Below, piece after piece: positions 57,622-58,126 of a stretch of 64,000 nt of DNA. This stretch comes from Bugula neritina (lineage: Eukaryota > Bryozoa > Gymnolaemata > Cheilostomatida > Bugulidae). The position numbers were made by a program, and so were the translations under genes. Location: contig OZ037772.1 in the NCBI GenBank assembly GCA_964035545.1, forward strand, positions 8,604,650 to 8,668,649, written 5' to 3'. A model generated the notes under the pieces. The model did no database searches. It worked only from the letters and a program-made list of their open reading frames with translations, and was not told the origin of the DNA. Within the stretch, counting starts at the first letter, position 1; the number at the start of each line of letters is the position of its first letter.

Positions 57622-57720
57622 GTAAAATGAGTGTTTATAAAACGTTACTAGAGTGCTCTATAGAAATAAATCTAGAGCATAAACATTAGAAGAAGTAAAA
57701 TGAGATTTGATTAATATAAT

Positions 57721-57781
57721 GGCATTTATTACTAGTAGTTTCGTACACAAGAACGATGTGCACTCGTCAGATAAATTAACC
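57721..57781 (-). ncRNA. Type I hammerhead ribozyme, minus strand
   Basis: Mirror copy of the plus-strand motif, with CTGACGA and GAAA cores, identical stems II and III, and a G-U instead of G-C pair in the outer part of stem I. Predicted cleavage after the base at 57730. Confidence 0.85.
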
Positions 57782-57800
57782 ACTATGAAGCAATCATAGT

Positions 57801-57861
57801 GGCTAATTTATCTGACGAGTGCACATCGTTCTTGTGTACGAAACTACTAGTAATAAATGCC
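57801..57861 (+). ncRNA. Type I hammerhead ribozyme, plus strand
   Basis: Core CTGACGA at 57812-57818 and GAAA at 57840-57843. Stem II pairs GTGCACA (57819-57825) with TGTGTAC (57833-57839), one G-U, loop TCGTTCT. Stem III pairs ACT (57843-57845) with AGT (57849-57851), loop ACT. Stem I pairs ATTTAT (57806-57811) with ATAAAT (57853-57858), then after a TA bulge GGC with GCC. The cleavage triplet is GTA with cleavage after A57852. All invariant core bases are present, so self-cleavage is expected. Confidence 0.88.
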
Positions 57862-57893
57862 ATTATATTAATCAAATCTCATTTTACTTCTTC

Positions 57894-58126
57894 TAATATA
57901 TATATATATATATATATATATATATATATATATATATATATATATATATATATATATATATATATATATATATATATATATATATAATATATATATACAT
58001 AATATATATATATATATAATACATATATATAATACATATATATATAATACATATATACATAATATATATATATATAATACATAGATATAATACATAGATA
58101 TAATACATATATATATATATATATAC
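57894..58126. repeat. (TA)n and TATAATACATA array, right flank of hammerhead element
   Basis: Pure TA for about 90 bp, then TATATAATACATATA variants to 58126. Long Tyr/Ile open frames here are composition artefacts. Confidence 0.95.

Follow-up and report, generated by a model that had tools for sequence, protein, structure and literature searches.

Penelope-like elements (PLEs) are marked by an open reading frame (ORF) that joins a reverse transcriptase (RT) to a GIY-YIG domain and by terminal repeats bearing hammerhead ribozymes, as described in the available parts of PMC11167929 and PMC3846280. In a typical PLE insert, pLTRs are accompanied by an inverted pLTR next to them, and one of the inverted pLTRs may carry a tail (PMC3846280, in the part available). 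For head-to-head PLE palindromes, self-priming on an antisense template was proposed in the same source and left open by its authors. The Anolis Poseidon protein was reported to cut and extend both strands in vitro, and to start reverse transcription at two neighbouring internal sites, which delimit the tail; the start site shows no apparent difference between the strands (PMC11167929, available excerpts). In those excerpts, the in vitro work covers both-strand cutting and the two internal starts, but not their combination in one insertion. The present genome contains a large natural record of finished insertion events, and the pattern of insertion ends described below is relevant to the integration mechanism of PLEs, a class that is poorly understood.

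The locus lies in a window of 64,000 nt, the whole stretch of DNA that was analysed, located on contig 8 of the Bugula neritina assembly (215.8 Mb, 295 contigs). The initial annotation had described an inverted pair of hammerheads, one core per strand, in a near-perfect palindrome, and this was found to be true to the sequence. The palindrome is real, but the insertion is larger than had been indicated, extending over 57621-57896 with a 65-nt tail at its left. Its left arm (57621..57788, minus strand) starts from a long (L) end, contains the tail and a hammerhead core (57724..57776, minus strand) and ends at template position -58. The tail (57621..57685, minus strand) occupies the distance between the S and L end positions and is present in the L arm only, as judged from sequence and end measurements. 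The right arm (57788..57896, plus strand) starts from a short (S) end, contains the second core (57806..57858, plus strand) and reaches template position -64. Window position 57852, the nucleotide directly 5' of the scissile bond, was taken as template position 0, and a cleaved RNA would start at +1. The ends and stops of this copy (insertion 65, L001) were measured against one other copy (L062). The arms meet head to head at 57788 with a 1-nt overlap. The target flanks are a (TA)n array at the left (57536..57621; tandem repeat of period 2, 43 copies, 97% matches) and a (TA)n-rich array at the right (57896..58125; tandem repeat AT, 119.5 copies, 83% matches), and this (TA)n target hides any target-site duplication.

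A repeat search of the window placed the inverted repeat at 57679-57788 and 57794-57903, with 110-nt arms that are 97% complementary and 5 nt apart, the outermost bases of the arms being (TA)n. When a 225-nt strand was folded, a single long hairpin was obtained with -167.9 kcal/mol, compared with -35.45 in shuffles (z -38). The long duplex between the arms, as envisaged earlier, is thus possible. Elsewhere in the window, exons of a NEK6/7-like protein kinase were recognised by eye from their motifs (19000-21909, minus strand). Two minisatellites (37466-37617, 53 bp x 2.9, 98% matches; 9717-9882, 55 bp x 3.0, 93% matches) and a (CA)n array with a 75-bp higher-order period (29540-29803) were also observed.

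The search of the window with the pattern CTGANGA-N21-GAAAC revealed two matches with 0 mismatches, one on the plus strand (57812-57844) and one on the minus strand (57738-57770). A further match, at 49878 (-), contains 1 mismatch and is no more than expected by chance (mean of 0.87 with at most 1 mismatch). By inspection, each core is complete (CUGACGA, GAAA, and GUA at the cleavage site), with a 7-bp stem II closed by G-C, a 3-bp stem III and a stem I with a UA bulge. The conserved core CUGANGA/GAAA, the UH cleavage site and the three stems of a type I hammerhead are thus all present in the sequence. The predicted cleavage sites, after 57852 (+) and after 57730 (-), had been placed correctly. 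The covariance-model check was passed weakly: in a 361-base search with an E-value threshold, Hammerhead_1 (RF00163) matched on both strands with 28.3 bits (E 4.9e-5) and an alignment spanning positions 1-45 of 45, under the gathering score of 34. The Rfam scan of the whole window gave no family at its gathering score. A whole-genome scan with RF00008 and RF00163 yielded 0 matches, but the control genomes gave 0 too, so this result is uninformative.

The palindrome had been regarded as isolated. However, a 32-nt piece of the core was found 242 times in the 215.8-Mb genome (125 forward and 117 reverse matches with at most 3 mismatches), while the reversed control gave 0. Some copies contain a body with an ORF, which was matched by 3547 proteins at E 0.001 or better among 7994 scored candidates. 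Among the 120 matches listed, the named sources include Watersipora, Oculina and Stylophora, and identity to the body ORF was 49-56%, except for one partial protein at 87%. The structure model of one relative of the body ORF displayed an RT fold, as expected for a reverse transcriptase domain. For the C-terminal piece of this relative (P0030), the best Pfam family was GIY-YIG (PF01541; E 0.072, 13.8 bits), below the cut-off of 22.6. The element's own C-terminal piece gave a poor model (pLDDT 61) without a meaningful fold match; the fold search with the C-terminal domain returned no match at E 0.001 or better, and sequence searches against solved structures returned none. The kinship to PLEs raised in the initial annotation was supported, and the probable assignment to this class rests on the RT fold together with the weak GIY-YIG match under the cut-off. 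The palindrome of the window is very probably a body-less PLE insertion, in which the terminal segment was placed in (TA)n; the surprise lies in the one-S-one-L pattern of its ends.

The outer ends of the family were found in two forms, each followed by (TA)n: S (...TTCTTCTAAT) and L (...CATTTTACT), the latter 65 nt further on. A total of 135 S and 139 L matches was obtained genome-wide, with 0 in the controls, and three places continue beyond the L motif into a non-A base. Among the matches listed (100 of 135 S and 100 of 139 L, with 35 S and 39 L ends outside the paired set), 65 outward pairs were formed, 64 being S/L and one L/L. In the examined loci, 67 of the 68 two-ended insertions were S/L (38 SL and 29 LS) and one was L/L, with the arms facing outward; inverted terminal repeats with the tail on one of them were hence present in 67/68. 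Under an even random draw of types, the probability of at most one like-type pair in 68 is about 2e-19. This suggests that each insertion event has one start of each kind.

The sole L/L insertion among the 68 (L061, C3:14446260-14446503) has a left arm of 82 nt and a right arm of 163 nt. In the stretch analysed, 16 of the 152 ends in the examined loci were partnerless, some partners being outside the stretch or too short to match. At least two of these 16 look one-armed (L018 at C5:14246613 and L021 at C3:13847265): their S arms end at -56 straight in (TA)n with no visible L arm, and they are possible one-sided events. The 119 hammerhead sites in the examined loci comprised 60 S, 55 L, two 'L truncated' and two that were neither; one of the two 'L truncated' sites (C5:9562200) is an S end by the genome-wide S pattern. 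One (TA)n region, at C2:29065878-29067711 (L070), contains three consecutive insertions, and the left arm of the middle one starts at +16 and not at S. At C1:845140 (L033), the sequence downstream of a hammerhead copy leaves the family about 10 nt past the cleavage site.

Both kinds of end adjoin (TA)n. At least 90% TA/AT was observed in 122 of 136 flanks, a number to be read with the fact that the end patterns require some adjoining (TA)n and would miss insertions elsewhere. Such flanks, as well as the variants common to both arms (see below), would also be produced if a single parent insertion gave rise to two divergent RNAs, one from each arm, and the (UA)n at the 3' end of each RNA primed its own cDNA; the S and L ends would then be inherited and not chosen. 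This scheme gives no reason for like-type pairs being only 1 in 68 and needs a first S/L founder; it is considered unlikely.

The arms were found to be independent in length. Of 67 insertions, 20 have an S arm that extends deeper than the L arm by at least 20 nt, 11 have a deeper L arm, and in 36 the two arms stop within 20 nt of each other. No arm extends beyond -100 in 51 of the 68 insertions examined; in the 17 that have such an arm, L is the longer in 11 and S in 6. In some cases (for example L042, L054, L078 and L081), one arm is too short to share sequence with the other and there is no palindrome at all. These lengths bear on self-priming, in which the first-made strand folds back and copies itself, a published hypothesis (PMC3846280, in the part available) that accounts for the palindromes and for the microhomology at the junctions. 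However, sequence missing from a template cannot appear in its copy. Tail sequence is present in L arms and absent from S arms, so L was not copied from S; S was not copied from L in the 20/67 insertions where it reaches at least 20 nt deeper, and in about half of those the L arm stops within the tail and has nothing in common with S. Furthermore, a self-primed copy is not expected to end exactly at S in 67/68. Two cDNAs with S and L starts therefore argue against the published idea, to which we give very little credence.

Both arms end between -47 and -64 in 30 of the 68 insertions, yielding near-symmetric palindromes. Ignoring orientation, 53 distinct stop combinations were counted among the 68, and 21 insertions share one of six combinations, all of which lie near -47 to -56. 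If a foldback DNA transposon or MITE were moving as a unit, inverted ends, many copies and uniform flanks would be seen, as observed here, but most insertions would be expected to have identical centres. Instead, the centres differ, 13 of 51 junctions contain fillers, the arms are unequal, some of them carry the RT body, and the two ends are not equal. This explanation is hardly tenable. Two palindromes with the same centre lie 370 bp apart at C1:15581889-15582529 (L023 and L041), probably as a local duplication.

The variants carried by the arms were compared in the 48 of 67 S/L insertions where both arms reach -42. At the polymorphic site +35 (C or T), S equalled L in 48/48 (20 T/T and 28 C/C). 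S and L had 27 variants in common; in 5000 permutations, the mean was 8.6 and the highest value 15. Differences between the bodies of the same insertion were 0.22, 0.40, 0.44, 0.49, 0.53, 0.61, 0.98, 1.02, 2.19 and 3.11%; hence 7 of 10 pairs were below 1%, with a between-insertion median of 2.04% (368 pairs), and two exceptions (i33 and i42) were as different as unrelated copies. These distances were determined by pairwise alignment, counting substitutions only, and replace a reference-anchored comparison (11 pairs, partner distances up to 7%) with medians of 1.02% within and 3.83% between insertions. The results suggest that each arm is a cDNA of its own and that both derive from one RNA source. 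Gene conversion could partly account for the agreement between arms; private differences between them persist.

Regarding the positions where the arms stop, 42 of 136 arm ends were located at -55/-56, 8 at -57 to -64, 26 at -47 to -54 and 30 beyond -64. The remaining ends were distributed as 11 at -46 to -1, one at 0 to +3 (L104, at +1) and 18 after +3. Near the RT start, the long arms showed three different junctions, so the idea of a second pile-up at that place was rejected. Because a stop at the expected 5' end of a cleaved RNA was seen in only 1 of 136 arms, the templates seem to have been mostly not cleaved by their own ribozyme. Consistent with this, insertion in Anolis still takes place with hammerhead mutants, and the RNA used in vitro is mainly the unprocessed form (PMC11167929, available excerpts).

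The pile-up at -55/-56 sits just 5' of the ribozyme; at the outer end of stem I there is a C-A step, whose A is position -56. A structural block at this position is unlikely, since the enzyme would by then have passed the whole ribozyme. In arms stopping at -56 beside a filler, the next base was C instead of the template G in 8/8 cases (7 insertions); three -56 joins have neither overlap nor filler, hence no added C (i4, i48 and i51). A pattern excluding the templated G after -56 gave 32 matches genome-wide, among which some palindromes appear twice, once per strand. At the following position the base was A or C and never T, and the partner arm explains several of the C. Some C fillers may be templated: that of i60 resembles the ribozyme and several match the partner arm. 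The simplest reading of the pile-up and the added C would be a capped transcript start near -56, and the added C could come from the capped 5' end of the RNA. The self-complementary TA at -55/-56 could also help the pile-up there. The arm ends suggest that transcripts start near the centre and run outward; one RNA would therefore normally carry one arm.

The junctions were scored in the 51 of 68 insertions with short arms. Overlaps of 0-4 nt were found in 38 and fillers of 1-9 nt in 13, and the overlap was at least 2 nt in 29/51 (null 19%), a pattern as in microhomology end joining. Taken as a whole, such a body-less PLE insertion is very probably made from two cDNAs, one per side of the break: uncleaved sense RNA of one source is copied from S in one of them and from L in the other, and the two are then joined. 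The PLE protein would cut the (TA)n target and both DNA ends would prime reverse transcription on this RNA, one starting at site S and the other at site L, 65 nt further 3'. As L ends adjoin (TA)n, the (UA)n of the source transcript could prime L, as opposed to a specific internal start. Each cDNA would pass the uncleaved hammerhead toward the 5' end of the RNA, often stopping at -55/-56, and the cDNA 3' ends would be joined head to head, either overlapping by 0-4 nt or separated by a short filler. Stops of both cDNAs near -56 would give rise to a palindrome that has a hammerhead on each strand. The duplex is best seen as a by-product of joining two cDNAs. The initial annotation had proposed that pairing of the arms turns cleavage on and off; a 225-nt strand does fold as one long hairpin, but the same process of insertion has many other outcomes besides the palindrome, and no observation points to selection on pairing. 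Such a switch is unsupported and extremely improbable.

A broader proposal, regarded as unlikely, is that priming at two sites and on two strands would be the normal mode of PLE integration and not an accident. Two sense transcripts of one locus would dimerise via hammerhead stem III (UACUAGUA), and each would supply a single cDNA to its own side of the break; which of them uses S and which uses L would be decided by the complex. In this view, the hammerhead would act as a module for pairing and for the 5' end, and cleavage would take place after insertion or never. Stem III contains the self-complementary UACUAGUA, and the RNA dimer was predicted at -43.4 kcal/mol versus -17.0 per monomer, calculated without a control; this energy does not single out stem III, as any stem-loop can dimerise by strand exchange. 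It has been reported by others that PLE hammerheads may cleave as dimers (PMC7761336, in the part available).

Inverted pLTRs, single tails and PLE hammerheads are already known. What is added here is the S/L count and the tests of it, with no claim of priority; neither an S/L pairing count nor a test of arm independence was found in the literature searched, which consisted largely of titles and the beginnings of abstracts, the original Penelope papers being outside the search. In the twin priming of LINE-1, a second cDNA across the break yields an inverted segment, and the second start is variable. In contrast, both starts are fixed here, and both cDNAs often cover the same stretch of the template. 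With metazoan non-LTR retrozymes, the family shares short elements, type I hammerheads and many copies (PMC7229834, in the part available). Retrozymes, however, give circular RNA and are organised as direct tandem repeats of about 300 bp, while the arms here are inverted and the 68 pairs face outward. One direct pair was noticed incidentally (C3:14446361 and 14449229), with no matching element sequence between its members. The Penelope/Poseidon-type PLEs, namely Penelope of Drosophila virilis, Poseidon of Anolis and the Pen families of Adineta vaga, have in common with the present family a pLTR with hammerhead (Anolis), an inverted pLTR, the tail on one of them, an AT-rich target and an ORF with RT plus GIY-YIG, the last below the cut-off here (PMC3846280, PMC11167929, in the excerpts available). 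The tail is 65 nt here compared with about 31-40 in those elements, and the target is (TA)n. Unlike them, 51/68 insertions are without an arm beyond -100 and 30/68 are near-symmetric palindromes. Beyond the work on Penelope/Poseidon-type elements, the one-S-one-L pattern was counted and the independence of the arms was tested here.
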